Shown piece after piece: positions 3,741-59,066 of a DNA stretch of 64,000 nucleotides; positions within the stretch are counted from its first letter, which is position 1; every line of letters starts with the position of its first letter. Source of the stretch: an uncultured Flavobacteriaceae bacterium (GTDB taxonomy: Bacteria > Bacteroidota > Bacteroidia > Flavobacteriales > Flavobacteriaceae); assembly GCA_947489085.1 (NCBI GenBank), contig CANLCJ010000005.1:62001-126000 (forward strand), in the 5' to 3' direction. Position numbers and translations under genes: made by a program. Under the pieces are notes generated by a model. That model was not told where the DNA came from, searched no databases, and worked only from the letters and a program-made list of their open reading frames with translations.

Positions 3741-4399
3741 TACATGTTTAGGTATTTTGTTAAGTAAGCCGAGCGGTCTTTTAAGCTCTGCGTAAAACTA
3801 TCCTCTTCGTGTCCAGATGCGATAGTGTAGCTGTATCTTCGAAACGTCTGAATAATATCATTTAACCCTGTGTTACCAATTTTCAATGTAATTTGAACAA
3901 TTTCGTTTTGCATTTTCGAAATAAAAGCACCTAATAATTTACCGTTATTCGATTCTACAATTTGGCTTATCTCGCTAAATGAATAATCGTTAGCTCCTTT
4001 TTCTATAACTAGAACACCGCCATTTTCAAAGAAAAATGGAGATTCGTTAAATAAACCAATAATATCATTAAGTTCGTAGTAACCAATATAATCGTTTTTC
4101 TCGTTAAGAATAGGCATAATATTAGCCGAGTTTTGAGCAAAAGCCTCTAAAACGTCTAGCCACATTGTAGTATCTCTAACAAAAAAATCTTCTAAGGCAT
4201 AGGTATATTCGTTTATAGATTTATTGCCATCGAAGCAATGCACATCTGTTTCAAAAAAAGTACCTATAAACACATCGTTTTCATCTATAACGGGAATATG
4301 AGAATAGGTAAGTTGGTTAAACAATTGCTTTAAATCACTTATTTTACCGTCACTTTTTAGCGGTTTAATGTCATTAATAACGAATTCTGAAAGTCTCAT
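3740..4399 (-). CDS. CBS-domain protein (CBS pair with C-terminal ACT-like region)
   Basis: A 219-residue soluble protein. The first 130 residues look like two CBS modules ('FNQLTYSHIPVIDENDVFIGTF' style repeats; 'ANIMPILNEKNDYIGYYEL'), which usually bind adenosine nucleotides. The last 80 residues ('IVQITLKIGNTGLNDIIQTFRRYSYTI') resemble an ACT-like regulatory fold. It is the first gene of the leftward operon and is coupled to nadK, so sensing the adenylate or NAD pool is a reasonable inference. No catalytic motif is visible. Confidence 0.8.
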   Translation of the reverse strand: MRLSEFVINDIKPLKSDGKISDLKQLFNQLTYSHIPVIDENDVFIGTFFETDVHCFDGNKSINEYTYALEDFFVRDTTMWLDVLEAFAQNSANIMPILNEKNDYIGYYELNDIIGLFNESPFFFENGGVLVIEKGANDYSFSEISQIVESNNGKLLGAFISKMQNEIVQITLKIGNTGLNDIIQTFRRYSYTIASGHEEDSFTQSLKDRSAYLTKYLNM

Positions 4400-50070: not shown

Positions 50071-50403
50071 ATGAGTCAAGACATAAACATTAAAATAACA
50101 GATAGAGATGGTGTAAAACACGACATTGTAGCACCTACCGATATGGCCATGAATTTAATGGAAGTTGTTCGGTCTTACGAATTAGCTCCAGAAGGTACTA
50201 TAGGCGTTTGTGGTGGTATGGCCATGTGCGCATCTTGCCAATGTTATGTGCTAAGCGATACTACTTTGCCAGAAATGGGAGATGATGAAGAGGCAATGTT
50301 ATCTGAGGCATTCGATGTTAAAGATAACAGCCGTTTAGGGTGCCAAATACAAATGACGCCAGACATGGAAGGATTAGAGGTGGAATTAGCTCCAGAAAGC
50401 TAA
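50071..50403 (+). CDS. Adrenodoxin-type 2Fe-2S ferredoxin
   Basis: 110 residues. The four cluster ligands fit C-x5-C-x2-C-x34-C: Cys 47, 53, 56 and 91 ('GVCGGMAMCASCQCYV', 'RLGCQIQM'). Acidic overall, as expected for an electron carrier docking on partner enzymes. It follows the Fe-S assembly genes mrp and nfu but has its own promoter-like element and terminator. Confidence 0.93.
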   Translation: MSQDINIKITDRDGVKHDIVAPTDMAMNLMEVVRSYELAPEGTIGVCGGMAMCASCQCYVLSDTTLPEMGDDEEAMLSEAFDVKDNSRLGCQIQMTPDMEGLEVELAPES

Positions 50404-50441
50404 TAAAACATAAAATTTAAAGTTGTTTAACAACTTAAAAC

Positions 50442-50477
50442 AAAAAAGCGCTACTTGTAAATGTGGTGCTTTTTTTT
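50442..50477 (+). terminator. Ferredoxin terminator
   Basis: AAAAAAGCGCTAC pairs with GTGGTGCTTTTTT (two G-U type pairs) around an 8-base loop, followed by a T tract. Confidence 0.75.
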
Positions 50478-50498
50478 GTTTTTAATCTCGTAATTGCC

Positions 50499-50533
50499 AA
50501 AAAAAAGCCCTGTACAGCTATTGGTACAGGGCT
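50499..50533 (-). terminator. Leftward intrinsic terminator of the candidate ncRNA
   Basis: AGCCCTGTAC and GTACAGGGCT form a perfect 10-bp stem with an 8-base loop. On the minus strand the stem is followed by eight T; on the plus strand there is no T tract. It therefore terminates leftward transcription, although no ORF enters it from the right. Confidence 0.8.
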
Positions 50534-50984
50534 AAAACTAACGGGGGACTAACCTTAACCTAATGATATGGTGTTAGTTTTAATAGAGAGACTGGTGTAT
50601 CACATTAATTGAAAGATAAAAGCGATTTATAATGCACATTTAAATTTTAGTTATAAAACGGTTTTTTTGGTGTTATAAGCGCACTTTAATTCTACATAAA
50701 CCTATGTGTTAGCTACGATTAATTTTTTAAATAAGTACACGAACTGCAAAAGCTTACATTTTTCCCAAAAATGATGTAATTCGTTGCCTTCGCAGCCATG
50801 TACCCTTTTGGTTGTATTTCAAATATTAACCAACTTTGTCGAAACGTCTCTAAAAGAATTTAGAGCTCTTATACCTCCTTATCCTTATACATGCATTACA
50901 GTTTTTATAACCAACTAACTACTTATCTGTATTGAGGTTTGAGAACGCTTCTATCTCTATAAATTTATTATCTTTACTGAGGTT
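50507..50984 (-). ncRNA. Candidate structured non-coding RNA, about 480 nt
   Basis: No convincing ORF exists in 50534-50990, yet the minus strand has a promoter-like TAAATTTG (50989-50996) at one end and a strong terminator at the other. Between them are several complementary blocks: AAAACTAAC/GTTAGTTTT (50534-50542 with 50573-50581); ACATA/TATGT (50694-50707); a long compound hairpin 50735-50803 (5-bp, 10-bp, 5-bp and 5-bp stems around a 3-base loop); TTGGTT/AACCAA (50808-50833); CTCTAAA/TTTAGAG (50848-50865). It lacks the conserved cores of RNase P RNA and tmRNA that I know. A 26-codon ORF (50799-50719) coincides with the big hairpin and is less likely to be the product. Confidence 0.5.
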
Positions 50985-50988
50985 GATA

Positions 50989-50996
50989 CAAATTTA
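50989..50996 (-). promoter_or_regulatory. -7 element for the candidate ncRNA
   Basis: The minus strand reads TAAATTTG, matching TAnnTTTG. A CTTG at 51017-51020 lies about 20 bases upstream as a possible -33 box. The predicted start is near 50984. Confidence 0.45.
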
Positions 50997-51024
50997 CAAG
51001 TAAAAAACAAGTAAAACAAGAAAA
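50996..51024. promoter_or_regulatory. Iterated ACAAGTAAAA repeats between ncRNA and HTH gene
   Basis: ACAAGTAAAA (50996-51005), ACAAGTAAAA (starting about 51008) and ACAAGAAAA (starting about 51017) follow one another at 10-12 base spacing, about one helical turn. They lie between the divergent ncRNA promoter and the HTH gene, a natural operator position for that regulator. Confidence 0.4.
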
Positions 51025-51055
51025 TAACAATTTTTTAAAGTAAAAACACGTACTA

Positions 51056-51454
51056 GTGAGTAAGTTCAAGGCAATTTTAAGAGAATATATTGCGCAAAAA
51101 GGCATAAGTCAAGATACCATATCCTTACAGATAGGAGACTCCCAGCAAGCTATTAGCGATTTCTTAAAGAAAGATGGCAAGCCTCACGAAAAGACAATTA
51201 GAAAGTATCTGGAAAAATTAGAAGGTTTCAAAGATTATTATAGTACAAGAAAATTACAAGTAAATGTAGAGGGGATTGACCAAGAGCTTTTAACAGACGG
51301 AAAATTATCCGAACAACATAAACAGATTATTAGCGATGCATTTTTATTTCATGAAGAAGAAGTAAAACAAATCATGACCGTAAAAAAGATGATTTCTGCC
51401 GAAAGATTGGATGCAGAAAACAATATTCTTAGAGAAATAAAAGGCTTAAAGTAA
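51056..51454 (+). CDS. HTH-domain regulator
   Basis: 132 residues from a GTG start. N-terminal XRE/phage-repressor-like helix-turn-helix ('GISQDTISLQIGDSQQAISDF', residues about 16-36), then a helical region without a recognised ligand domain. I cannot assign a family below HTH level. It is divergent from the candidate ncRNA and convergent with the small membrane-protein operon. Confidence 0.7.
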   Translation: MSKFKAILREYIAQKGISQDTISLQIGDSQQAISDFLKKDGKPHEKTIRKYLEKLEGFKDYYSTRKLQVNVEGIDQELLTDGKLSEQHKQIISDAFLFHEEEVKQIMTVKKMISAERLDAENNILREIKGLK

Positions 51455-51496
51455 GCGCAGTAACGCCCAATTTTATTTTCATTGCATTTTACACCC

Positions 51497-51766
51497 TTAT
51501 TTTAGTTGTAAACCCACGGCTAAGCGCAGTTCGTTATTAATTTCCTTATAATTTTTAAGCTTATCATTAAGGTTTTCTATATAATGTATTTTATGCAAAA
51601 TCTTGTAAAAAGCATTTTTTACAAGATTAATTTCTATATCATCACTGGATTGCGTTGCATATTCATTAATTAGCCTTTCAAAATTTGTAATGGTAGTATT
51701 AAAATCGAGTTCGCCTTTGCGGTAATTTTCAACTATGGTTTTTAAATCGTTATGAAGTGCTTCCAT
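51497..51766 (-). CDS. Hypothetical 89-residue helical protein
   Basis: No recognised family. Charged, Asn/Glu/Lys-rich, no signal or membrane helix, likely alpha-helical ('LHNDLKTIVENYRKGELD', 'LNDKLKNYKEINNELRLA'). It starts 2 bases after the stop of the four-helix membrane protein, so the two are surely co-transcribed and may interact. Confidence 0.6.
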   Translation of the reverse strand: MEALHNDLKTIVENYRKGELDFNTTITNFERLINEYATQSSDDIEINLVKNAFYKILHKIHYIENLNDKLKNYKEINNELRLAVGLQLK

Positions 51767-51768
51767 AA

Positions 51769-52374
51769 TTATTTTACTAGTGTTTCGTTAATTTCGTCAA
51801 TAAAGTTTAAAGCAGTATTAATAAATGCTTTTGATGCCTTTCGGTCTTGTATTACCTTTTGCTTTGCTTTAAATTGCAATTGAAATACAAGCACAATAAC
51901 AATTGAAAACAAAATAGAGGTGGTAATAAATGCTATTTCATACATGTAATCAGGATAGGGATCTTCCTTGGTAATAAAAACATAAAGTAAATCATACACT
52001 GCAACCGAACAAAAGCCGCCACCAATGATATTACTTACCGTTCTGAATCGCTTATTGCTATCTGTAATTCTATTTACAACTAGTAACAAAAACACAGCAC
52101 AGCCAAAAAGCGCAAAATGAGCACCAAAACAGTATAAGAAAGATCTCATTGTAGAAAAACCAAACCTCCCATCGTTAGCCTCTTCTTCAAAAAAAACATG
52201 CCAAAAAGGTGAGGTTACACAAACAAAAGACAGCAGGGCTATGATAACCATCTCTACAGTATCAAATAGCAATACTGCCTTTACGGTGGTACGTGGCGTT
52301 GCTGTATTAACCTCTTCCTTTGTCTCTCGGGACTTGAATTTGTTTTTTGTTAATCTGTTCTTGGTTTTCTTCAT
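51769..52374 (-). CDS. Hypothetical four-helix membrane protein
   Basis: 201 residues. Basic N-terminus (about 1-30), four hydrophobic helices ('VEMVIIALLSFVCVTSPFWHV', near 40; 'SFLYCFGAHFALFGCAVFLLL', near 83; 'IIGGGFCSVAVYDLLYVF'; 'YEIAFITTSILFSIVIVLVF') and a C-terminal helix. No family recognised. The ATG lies inside the preceding lipoprotein gene in another frame, overlapping 68 bases. A damaged paralogue with the same arrangement follows at 52686-53185. Confidence 0.65.
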   Translation of the reverse strand: MKKTKNRLTKNKFKSRETKEEVNTATPRTTVKAVLLFDTVEMVIIALLSFVCVTSPFWHVFFEEEANDGRFGFSTMRSFLYCFGAHFALFGCAVFLLLVVNRITDSNKRFRTVSNIIGGGFCSVAVYDLLYVFITKEDPYPDYMYEIAFITTSILFSIVIVLVFQLQFKAKQKVIQDRKASKAFINTALNFIDEINETLVK

Positions 52375-52453
52375 CTAATTCTTGTTTGGTACAAGACGTT
52401 GCTAAACCAGCTATTACCATTACTAAAGCCAATAGTGTTTTAATGTTTTTCAT
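52307..52453 (-). CDS. Small lipoprotein, 48 residues (copy A)
   Basis: Starts MKNIKTLLALVMVIAGLATS followed by Cys 21: a clean lipobox signal. The mature part is only 28 residues, beginning CTKQELDEENQEQ and ending in a basic stretch. It is closely related to the 46-residue copy at 53045-53185 (shared SCTKQELDE-NQEQI-KK and PRDK). The gene for the four-helix membrane protein begins inside its 3' half in a different frame. Confidence 0.65.
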   Translation of the reverse strand: MKNIKTLLALVMVIAGLATSCTKQELDEENQEQINKKQIQVPRDKGRG

Positions 52454-52685
52454 CTTTTGTGTTTTAAGGTTAATAATAGAAACCATAAAATAAGAAACGA
52501 AAACGGTTTAAGTAATGGTAATAACGTCGTTTTGCAACGAATTTATTAACATAAATTCTTACAATTGCTAAAAATAGTTTTGGGAAAAATGATTTACTTC
52601 AATAAATAACAAATTTATTAAATAAATTTTAAAGGTAAGGGTTTATGTACGTAGGTTTCAGCTAAAAAACAACAAATTACAAAAG

Positions 52686-53106
52686 TTAGCTGTGGTATTT
52701 CCTGAGCAGGTCTTGCGGTAATACCGTAATTAGAAAGAAACAATACCCACCACTATTATATTGCTTATAGTCTTTAAATTGTTTGTGGGCATTTATAAAT
52801 ACGTTTATAATTAATAGGAGAAAAACAGAGCAACCAAAAAAGTGTAAAATTAGAGCTAAAACTATATAAGAATACGCATATCGATATAAAACCAAATATG
52901 CCATCTTCTGCTCCTTCTTCGAAGGCTATGTGCCAAAAAGGCAAAGTTGTAGAAATAAAAGCCAATATTGATATTACAATCAATTCAATACGTCCCAATA
53001 TTAATACTGGCTTTTGGGTAATGTTTTTAGATAAAAAGCTAATCTTACCTTTTGTCTCTTGGATTTTGAATGGTTTTTTTGCTAATTTGTTCTTGGTTGT
53101 CTTCAT
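52686..53106 (-). pseudogene. Frameshifted paralogue of the four-helix membrane protein
   Basis: Residues 1-90 of a 110-codon frame (52774-53106) align with the intact protein ('LPFWHIAFEEGAEDGIFGF' against SPFWHVFFEEEANDGRFGF). At a run of six A on the plus strand (52836-52841; five in the intact copy) homology jumps to another frame ('FFGCSVFLLLIINVF' to 52686). The last two helices are missing. One base gained in a homopolymer plus C-terminal loss indicates a decaying copy. Confidence 0.75.
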
Positions 53107-53185
53107 CTAATTCTTGTTTGGTACAAGATGTTAATACTCCAAAAAATAATACGCCTAAAACAACAAAGATTTTAATTTTTTTCAT
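53045..53185 (-). CDS. Small lipoprotein, 46 residues (copy B)
   Basis: MKKIKIFVVLGVLFFGVLTS followed by Cys 21; the mature part begins CTKQELDEDNQEQ and ends NPRDKR. Paralogue of copy A. The lipoprotein frame is intact although the overlapping membrane-protein frame is broken downstream, so the lipoprotein may still be functional on its own. Confidence 0.6.
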   Translation of the reverse strand: MKKIKIFVVLGVLFFGVLTSCTKQELDEDNQEQISKKTIQNPRDKR

Positions 53186-53325
53186 TTTAAAAGTTTTTAA
53201 AGTTAATAATTGAAACCCTAAAATAAGAAACGAAAACGCTTTTTTGAAAGTAATATAGTACTTTTATGATTAACGGTAGAGTGAAATGGCATGTATGCGA
53301 CATTTTTGTTTGCAAACCGTATAAA

Positions 53326-54126
53326 CTACCACCAAACTAACATTAGTTTTTTAAGGGTTCCTGTGGGAGACTTAGCCCAAAGTAGTATGGCATATTGCTC
53401 CTCAACATAAGTTTGGGCAAGAGGGCGCAGTGTTGTGTACGAGATCCAGTTTACGCCTGTGTGTGGTGTAATTAACCAATCTTTCTTTTCTGGACAATAA
53501 AATTTGTAGGTTTTAAAATGCAAGAGTTCTTTAAAGTTACAGTATATGCCCATAACACAGTTTGTATTAAGTGTTTTTAGAGTAATGTTAGGTTGGTGGT
53601 AAGGCAAAAAGAGCTGCGCTTTAAAATACACCTGTTGTACAAAGGCTTTTGCAGTTAAATTAAAGGGTTCTAGATAAGATTTACAAGGGTTTGTATTCAA
53701 TAAGGGCAATTGTTTGTTTTTAAGCTTATCGAGCTTTTCTACTAGGCTGTCTTTGCGGTTAGGGCCAATACAATGCTCAATTTCCGAATGGCCCACGCTA
53801 GGGTCGTATACATAAAATTTATAAACCACTTCTAGGTGGATGTGCTGCGTGTCTCTTTTTAACAACACATCCAATTCGCCAACAGTTTGTCTTTGGTCTT
53901 GGATTTGAAGGTTTTCGGCAAGAATGGTAGTATTGGGCAAGGCAGAAATTTGAAAGCTTACCAGACGTTCTACATACTTTCCAAGGCGTAAATTGTTATC
54001 AATATCTATAGCGATTTTTTGGTGTTGTTTTTCTATAGCAAATTGTTGCAGCTCCCAGACACTTGCTTTATTCCACAGTGTTGGGGTATTTAAAAATCCT
54101 TTATACCGTAGTTTTAGCGTCGTCAT
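53326..54126 (-). CDS. DUF1853-family protein
   Basis: 266 residues, soluble. 'LGKYVERLVSFQI' near residue 48, 'TVGELDVLLKRDTQHIHLEVVYKFYVYD' region near 82-110 and 'CIGPNRKDSLVEKLDKL' are DUF1853 blocks. The Glu-x-Asp ... His-Leu-Glu-Val-x-x-Lys arrangement resembles a PD-(D/E)XK fold, but nuclease activity is not established for the family. It lies 19 bases downstream of the phosphoesterase gene, likely one operon. Confidence 0.82.
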   Translation of the reverse strand: MTTLKLRYKGFLNTPTLWNKASVWELQQFAIEKQHQKIAIDIDNNLRLGKYVERLVSFQISALPNTTILAENLQIQDQRQTVGELDVLLKRDTQHIHLEVVYKFYVYDPSVGHSEIEHCIGPNRKDSLVEKLDKLKNKQLPLLNTNPCKSYLEPFNLTAKAFVQQVYFKAQLFLPYHQPNITLKTLNTNCVMGIYCNFKELLHFKTYKFYCPEKKDWLITPHTGVNWISYTTLRPLAQTYVEEQYAILLWAKSPTGTLKKLMLVWW

Positions 54127-59019: not shown

Positions 59020-59066
59020 AATTATTAATTAATTAAGGTTCTCGACCTTTGTTATTAATGAGGGCG

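Follow-up and report, generated by a model that had tools for sequence, protein, structure and literature searches.

Between a ferredoxin gene and the gene of a helix-turn-helix (HTH) protein, the 64,000-nucleotide stretch of DNA from an uncultured Flavobacteriaceae bacterium analysed here (the window) carries a minus-strand interval of about 480 nt that ends in an intrinsic terminator. What is transcribed from this interval, and what might it act upon? The original prediction was a new structured RNA; it named neither a target operon nor a cassette nor any antisense complementarity, all of which emerged from the follow-up analysis. Reading the sequence evidence as a whole, we consider it likely that the interval encodes a small, non-overlapping antisense RNA which silences a lipoprotein/membrane protein operon and resides in an accessory cassette of five parts.

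A probable structured RNA gene between the ferredoxin and HTH genes

The prediction had described a leftward terminator with a 10-bp stem and an eight-T tail, a TAnnTTTG element upstream on the same strand and a lack of good coding capacity in between. All three features were recovered (Table 1). In the terminator, 50,506-50,515 pairs with 50,524-50,533 over 10 bp and eight T occupy 50,506-50,499 of the minus strand; TAAATTTG is read from 50,996 to 50,989; and the ORF list contains no minus-strand ORF of at least 30 aa inside the unit. Transcription would be expected to start near 50,983. The ferredoxin gene has its own plus-strand hairpin and T-run at about 50,443-50,482, as judged by eye. 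The sigma-A consensus mapped for F. psychrophilum has this same form, TAnnTTTG (PMC9723704). Across 13 loci, it occurs on the RNA strand no more than 250 nt from the HTH start in ten and is absent before the RNA in three, and it is found on the opposite strand in four.

The folding energy of the whole unit is moderately better than that of shuffled sequences (z -2.1, 3 of 100 shuffles equally good), so that energy alone is no proof of an RNA. A 6S-like RNA or an Rfam flavobacterial motif had been considered as possible identities, and an Rfam search had been proposed as a check. No family of Rfam release 15 reached its gathering score in the RNA unit. When E values up to 10 were admitted for 50,400-51,060, every one of the 18 matches remained below its own cut-off, the best scoring 23.7 bits where 50 are needed. 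The covariance model of 6S RNA (RF00013) did not match the unit either, a weak test because this model also finds nothing elsewhere in the genome. The sole Rfam match at cut-off in the window was an S16-Flavobacteria ribosomal protein leader at 59024-59059 on the minus strand (54.1 bits). Tandem repeats resembling type III antitoxins were sought in 50,400-53,400 and none was present.

Table 1. Features of the cassette in the window and the evidence for each
Feature	Position	Strand	Basis
Putative antisense RNA gene, about 480 nt	50499..50978	-	homologues in G006 and G004; no ORF of at least 30 aa; no Rfam match at cut-off
TAAATTTG, -7 box of RNA gene (TAnnTTTG)	50989..50996	-	direct sequence match
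Intrinsic terminator of RNA	50499..50533	-	10-bp stem, T8
Hairpin A, long, of RNA core	50735..50804	-	all 19 main-stem pairs kept in 3/3 orthologues
Site A, apical part of hairpin A, TTTTGGGAAAAATG	50757..50770	-	14-nt exact complement to operon leader
Site C, GCAACGAATT	50778..50787	-	10-nt complement to leader; window only; chance possible
Hairpin B; loop AATATTTGAAATAC and 5' arm form the site-B antisense segment	50808..50833	-	in 3/3 orthologues
HTH (XRE-like) protein, GTG start, divergent from RNA	51056..51454	+	Pfam HTH_3, PHROG, alignments
Small 89-aa protein, third operon gene	51497..51766	-	conserved in five cassettes
Membrane protein, 201 aa, second operon gene	51769..52374	-	family search
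Putative lipoprotein, 48 aa (TSC lipobox), first operon gene, overlaps membrane gene	52307..52453	-	20 homologues
Target site B, just upstream of lipoprotein start codon	52469..52482	-	12/14 positions complementary to RNA
Target site A, CATTTTTCCCAAAA, -138 from lipoprotein ATG	52578..52591	-	complement to RNA; unpaired in predicted leader fold
TAAATTTG, candidate -7 box of target operon	52610..52617	-	direct sequence; candidate promoter
Truncated tandem duplicate of lipoprotein and membrane gene	52774..53185	-	identity to intact protein; translated start

Hairpins of the RNA are conserved in two relatives

A search of 12 genomes of the genus with a 526-base DNA query of the RNA unit gave a homologue in G006 with 75% identity over positions 1-520 and a strongly diverged one in G004 that covered the core only (E 6.3e-7). 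In all, RNA-like DNA was found in 3 of the 12 genomes, the own one included, which makes a housekeeping RNA unlikely; G006 gave a stray 29-nt match besides, and the neighbouring HTH protein is present in the same three. When 60 relatives were searched, 8 gave matches at E <= 0.01, and those beyond the own genome and G006 were 23-53 nt long.

Conservation of the stems in relatives had been named as a further check. The mean column identity in the core of the three sequences is 86%, and the stems are kept via compensatory as well as one-sided changes. The compound hairpin of the prediction (hairpin A) retains 19 of 19 main-stem pairs in the three orthologues, and the 9-bp stem beside the terminator, formed by AAAACTAAC and GTTAGTTTT, is recognisable by eye in the two relatives. 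In the core alignment, 39 predicted pairs are 96.6% paired and sliding the partners lowers this value to 38-48%. Four pairs have changed on both sides; 17 of 500 shuffles did equally well, a weak test since only two to three distinct sequences exist, and the structure was derived from the same three sequences used to score it, which favours it. The helix of hairpin B is paired in 90.9% of alignment cells, and its antisense segment is complementary to the lipoprotein leader beside the start codon. A full-length homologue in G006, a core in G004 and preserved stems, with no Rfam family at cut-off, agree with the predicted novelty of the RNA. The RNA unit is very probably real, and the sequence data support its reading as a new RNA gene that is structured and carries a terminator and a promoter-like box of its own.

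The RNA gene belongs to an accessory cassette

The HTH gene, divergent from the RNA gene, converges with an operon on the RNA strand, in which the small protein, membrane protein and lipoprotein genes lie in this order from the HTH gene. The same order and orientation are found in five cassettes, namely those of the window, G006, G004, Flavivirga aquatica (G106) and an uncultured Algibacter (G070), whose flanking genes differ by eye. Upstream of the intact operon lies the truncated duplicate, in which the second lipoprotein starts with ATG at 53,185 and a membrane remnant (52,774-53,106) is 43% identical to the intact membrane protein across 103 aa.

The HTH protein, whose gene is present at all window-type loci, matches the Pfam family HTH_3 at E 0.00035 (21 bits, below the cut-off of 23) and a PHROG transcriptional regulator at E 1.2e-05, and its alignments show a conserved C-terminal L[ST]EEHKQIISDAFL-like motif. 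For the three operon proteins, no Pfam or NCBIfam model scored above cut-off, and PADLOC and PHROGs gave weak matches. The membrane protein reached 25.9 bits (E 1e-05) with HisKA_7TM of Pfam, below the cut-off of 28.6, and was modelled as long helices at low confidence (mean pLDDT 56); the 89-aa protein had no Pfam family up to E 1. All 20 aligned lipoproteins share a signal sequence and an invariant Cys, and many have an IDKDKxxxPG-like motif at the C-terminus. Matches to models of defence systems were weak only (capH, E 0.0015, with the HTH protein; PDC-M67B, E 0.00039, with the membrane protein of the window), as was RTasSLATT with the Flavivirga membrane protein (E 8.6e-05), and were not taken to indicate function.

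The membrane protein family was detected in 19 of 397 genomes of the bacterial family (E <= 1e-4) and in 7 of 296 in an order-wide sample (E <= 1e-8), own genome included in both counts; one genus (g198) has it in 9 of 11 genomes. The ferredoxin is present in all 12 genomes of the genus of the window. The DNA beyond it was compared for five of these 12. The G006 sequence is like that of the window as far as the stop codon of the ferredoxin gene (window 50,403) and again from window 53,444 onwards; only 151 bases separate these points in G006, against about 3,040 in the window, and the G006 cassette is situated on another contig. Similarity resumes near 53,458-53,564 in L133 and L136, with other sequence between, and L127 and L134 showed no similarity past the ferredoxin in the stretch compared. 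By sequence comparison, the cassette is an accessory element at the window site.

Other cassettes depart from this layout. The same genome contains a second, diverged one (G000:C27:31000-37500, L079), in which a small HTH-like gene replaces the RNA. In L142 (3360-3512, minus strand), a double-glycine leader peptide, identified by eye, replaces the lipoprotein upstream of the membrane gene. L121 and L123 have tandem arrays of lipoprotein and membrane genes with no HTH gene seen nearby. The cassettes of L040, L087, L115, L116 and L124 lie near a stretch ending in AGTAGGC, of the type GGGCGTAGCCGAAAACCC...AGAGTAGGCA, which precedes short ORFs, some with double-glycine leaders; this stretch, not found in L086, L117, L118 and L119, is possibly a shared leader or promoter element. 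In several related cassettes, a small HTH/Cro-like gene is divergent from the HTH gene, as seen by eye. Four such small proteins tested had no PHROG match; of the proteins tested from the Cro-type loci, the three CI-like HTH proteins matched phage repressor families and the seven others matched nothing.

A viral or mobile source was considered as well. In a pattern-based search, which distant relatives may escape, neither the HTH nor the membrane protein had a relative in viral contigs. Plasmids yielded no relative of the membrane protein, and phages gave no relative of the HTH protein.

Complementary segments in the RNA and the lipoprotein operon leader

The RNA has short segments complementary to the operon leader, and the pairing sites are antiparallel and colinear between the two. 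Site A matches exactly over 14 nt in the window, 15 in G006 and 13 in G004, at 138-143 nt upstream of the lipoprotein ATG. Between window/G006 and G004, 3 of 13 intermolecular pairs have changed on both sides and none is broken; 67 of 500 shuffles were equally good with two distinct rows only, and sliding the partners leaves 25-73% paired. At site B, complementarity is exact over 14 nt at -28/-30 in G006 and G004. The corresponding value in the window is 12 of 14 with the leader of the intact lipoprotein gene and 13 of 14 with that of the truncated duplicate.

The best exact match of the window RNA to its own lipoprotein start is 8-9 nt and thus at background, equalled by 250 of 300 shuffled targets and by 10 of 32 other regions, and by duplex energy the own target takes rank 9 of 12. 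The case for the window hence depends on site A, the partial site B and the orthologues. Site A is part of the operon mRNA only if TAAATTTG at 52,610-52,617, which ends 18 bases before target site A, is the promoter; with a nearer promoter it would lie outside. A similar box is found in the G006 operon leader and no exact one in G004.

GAGAGAC within the lipoprotein gene was tried and rejected as target of a GUCUCUC loop: it is present in the window, reads AAGAGAC in G006 and G106 and is absent in G004. In G070, GAGAGAC occurs only at the start codon.

Antisense matches recur at diverged loci

The start region from -60 to +20 was tested at 21 loci with 300 shuffles each. Seven loci showed exact antisense to their own lipoprotein start region that 0-8 of the 300 shuffles equalled: G006 (14 nt), G004 (14 nt), G106 (13 nt), G212 (18 nt), G430a (17 nt), G436 (15 nt) and G430c (17 nt). 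G106 exposes TTTTAAGTCTCTC against AUGAGAGACUUAAAA, as does the second copy L092, the two not being independent because their RNAs are nearly identical. G212, G436 and G430c have TTTTCATGTTAATAC in common against the start codon, and -28/-29 is matched in G430a (17 nt) and in G385 (11 nt if exact, a longer stretch when G-U pairs are admitted). Start-site complements of 13-22 nt were present in ten cassettes (L037, L039, L038, L092, L141, L086, L116, L117, L115 and L119). L141, which was found late and has the gene order of the cassette, showed a 19-nt match at the same place, at -24. In L119, 22 nt lie in the 3' part of the presumed transcript of a divergent small gene, directly before a terminator. 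The lipoprotein leader of L119 (upstream of the ATG at 3855, minus strand) contains a 13-bp inverted repeat which could hide its own start site.

Seven of the RNAs were folded (G212, G436, G430b, G385, G430a, G106 and G070; z -2.3 to -5.4), and in these the antisense segment lies wholly or partly in a loop closed by a stem of about 9-13 bp. For the g198 group, the stem shows compensatory changes in 2 of 11 pairs, and two pairs are broken in one sequence. No such closed loop was seen in L141, the match of which falls in a weakly folded region, or in L119, where it is unpaired between two hairpins.

A control covered 33 loci, that of the window among them, and asked at each how long an exact complement to -40..+15 of the first gene could be found in 900 nt (+1150 to +2050, operon strand). 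Matches of at least 14 nt occurred in 8 of 33 loci on the operon strand, in none of 33 on the reverse strand and in 10 of 1056 pairings of an RNA region with the target of another locus; for at least 13 nt, the values were 11 of 33, 1 of 33 and 27 of 1056. Complementarity is not universal: of 23 loci with an HTH gene nearby, ten besides the window and G070 (8-10 nt) show nothing longer than 10 nt. Where a small HTH-like gene replaces the RNA, matches stay at the background of 7-10 nt, except in L119, and the same holds for most lipoprotein and membrane gene loci where no HTH gene was seen. L143 and L144, members of another family with no HTH gene seen, have 12 and 13 nt, which may be chance. 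In this AT-rich DNA, a few loci have chance-like matches of 12-15 nt at other places, on one strand or the other. For example, L141 has one of 15 nt that lies 1.9 kb upstream and on the opposite strand, and opposite-strand matches of 12-13 nt were seen in 4 of 27 loci. A GU-aware duplex scan put the own target first in 4 of 12 loci (G004, G106, G212 and G385; G106 tied with the identical start of G070), second in G006 and fourth to ninth in the other seven.

Palindromes are common binding sites of HTH proteins, the RNA copy of site A comes close to being one (CATTTTTGGGAAAAATG) and an HTH gene accompanies every window-type locus; the common sequences could therefore be DNA operators of the HTH protein, one within the RNA gene and another ahead of the operon, and a position of site A outside the mRNA would suit such operators. 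Yet the long matches are complementary and not same-strand, with the strand difference seen for at least 14 nt in the 33-locus control, and start-codon matches such as TTTTTTCATGTTAATACT and TTTTAAGTCTCTC are non-palindromic and lie wholly or partly in RNA loops. Moreover, inspection by eye shows no palindrome in the G004 target copy of site A, and site A is more than 200 bp inside the RNA gene. We regard operator sites in place of RNA-RNA pairing as improbable, if the strongest of the alternatives.

Slightly less credible is an orphan structured RNA which acts in trans or binds protein, has its real targets elsewhere in the genome and matches the operon as a by-product. The RNA, at about 480 nt, is far longer than the pairing loops, which give no role to its 5' and 3' parts; furthermore, GUCUCUC is kept in the RNAs of the window and G006, the lipoprotein start codons of which do not match it. 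Against this, the RNA travels with the operon and several diverged forms match their own operon.

The truncated duplicate in the window cassette and the start-site match at background would also fit a non-functional remnant, that is, an intergenic relic with hairpins and chance complementarity. This is more doubtful still given an identity of 75% to G006 over 520 of 526 bases, a core of three at 86% with compensatory changes and an intact promoter box and terminator.

It is very unlikely that the RNA derives from one of the known classes (6S, riboswitch, retron msr-msd or attenuator): the 6S gene of this genome is unaccounted for, as the Rfam model finds none in it and detects 6S in 6 of 14 control genomes, but 6S RNA is widespread and RNA-like DNA was found in 3 of 12 genus genomes, the cassette is absent from the window site in G006, Rfam gave no match at cut-off, no reverse transcriptase was noticed in the ORF lists around the cassettes, and the RNA, on the minus strand and divergent from the plus-strand HTH gene, is not a cis-regulatory leader of that gene.

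A candidate antisense system of the type I kind

An antisense RNA directed at the lipoprotein operon is thus the reading we prefer. What the sequences show is an RNA gene, hairpins kept in relatives, a cassette, and RNAs that at several diverged loci are complementary to their own targets. We infer that both RNAs are made and that pairing represses. Exposed loops of the RNA would pair with the leader of the lipoprotein-membrane-small protein operon and with its translation start and so keep the operon silent, probably because the duplex shuts out ribosomes and is open to attack by RNase. Most likely, translation of the first operon gene would be stopped, as OrzO and IstR-1 do to their targets. 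Judging by its position, the HTH protein probably balances the divergent promoters against each other. The lipoprotein/membrane pair may be harmful or specialised enough to need silencing, as expected of a type I toxin-antitoxin-like or exclusion device.

The mode of action is known in kind, an antisense RNA acting on a small-protein operon. The UUGG loop of site A presumably fits the YUNR U-turn motif. Recognition via hairpin loops is familiar from the plasmid antisense RNAs CopA/CopT, RNAI/RNAII and Sok/hok, which are cis-encoded and overlap their targets fully, whereas complementarity is confined to short segments here. By analogy of layout, the cassette is best read as resembling tisB/istR-type type I toxin-antitoxin loci. 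The E. coli type I loci tisB/istR-1, shoB/ohsC, zorO/orzO and dinQ/agrB have divergently encoded, non-overlapping antisense RNAs (PMC3919570, PMC4147584); the second of these papers reviews divergent loci of the istR/orz kind. In common with them, the cassette has a small protein gene with a putative antisense RNA nearby but not overlapping, the RNA at 50,499-50,978 and the 48-aa ORF at 52,307-52,453. Limited continuous complementarity to the leader would be a further likeness, with 18-21 nt in the E. coli loci (PMC3919570, PMC4147584) and 11-22 nt here; the window has 14 nt at -138, if transcribed, and a start site at background, and ten relatives have 13-22 nt. For OrzO, 15 continuous pairs suffice (PMC3919570). 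The differences are an HTH gene and two operon genes in between, a putative lipoprotein coupled to a membrane protein, a host from the Flavobacteriaceae and several loops closed by long stems. At several loci here pairing covers the start codon, which it does not in the E. coli loci (PMC4147584).

The text of an article on type I loci (PMC11264685) contains no mention of Bacteroid- or Flavobacteri-. Titles and abstract openings of open-licence PMC articles revealed no antisense/small-protein system of this kind in Bacteroidota, and the cassette and RNA family were found neither in Rfam nor in that literature; Flavo-1, Bacteroidales-1 and 6S of Rfam, which belong to this phylum or to bacteria in general, had no gathering-score match here. 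The F. psychrophilum map includes 45 sRNAs not antisense to genes (PMC9723704).

The presumed exported peptide is a putative lipoprotein in most cassettes and a double-glycine leader peptide in L142. In lambda cI-rexA-rexB and phage exclusion modules, a repressor-like HTH gene lies beside a small multi-helix membrane protein; the likeness to the cassette is one of layout, the gene order is opposite and an RNA occupies that place at window-type loci. We raise as a tentative idea, doubtful at present, that the cassettes form a new class of RNA-silenced, horizontally moving Bacteroidota elements in which a small exported peptide and an overlapping membrane partner would constitute a killing, exclusion or abortive-infection device. 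Their fast-evolving antisense RNAs may have been rebuilt several times, always aimed at the translation start of the peptide, in the place held by a Cro-like gene in sister cassettes.

As RNA-target pairs that differ by locus while complementarity is kept, the cassettes would offer a natural experiment on antisense recognition. In the Bacteroidota, where few sRNAs have been worked out, the cassette also adds four protein families to test.
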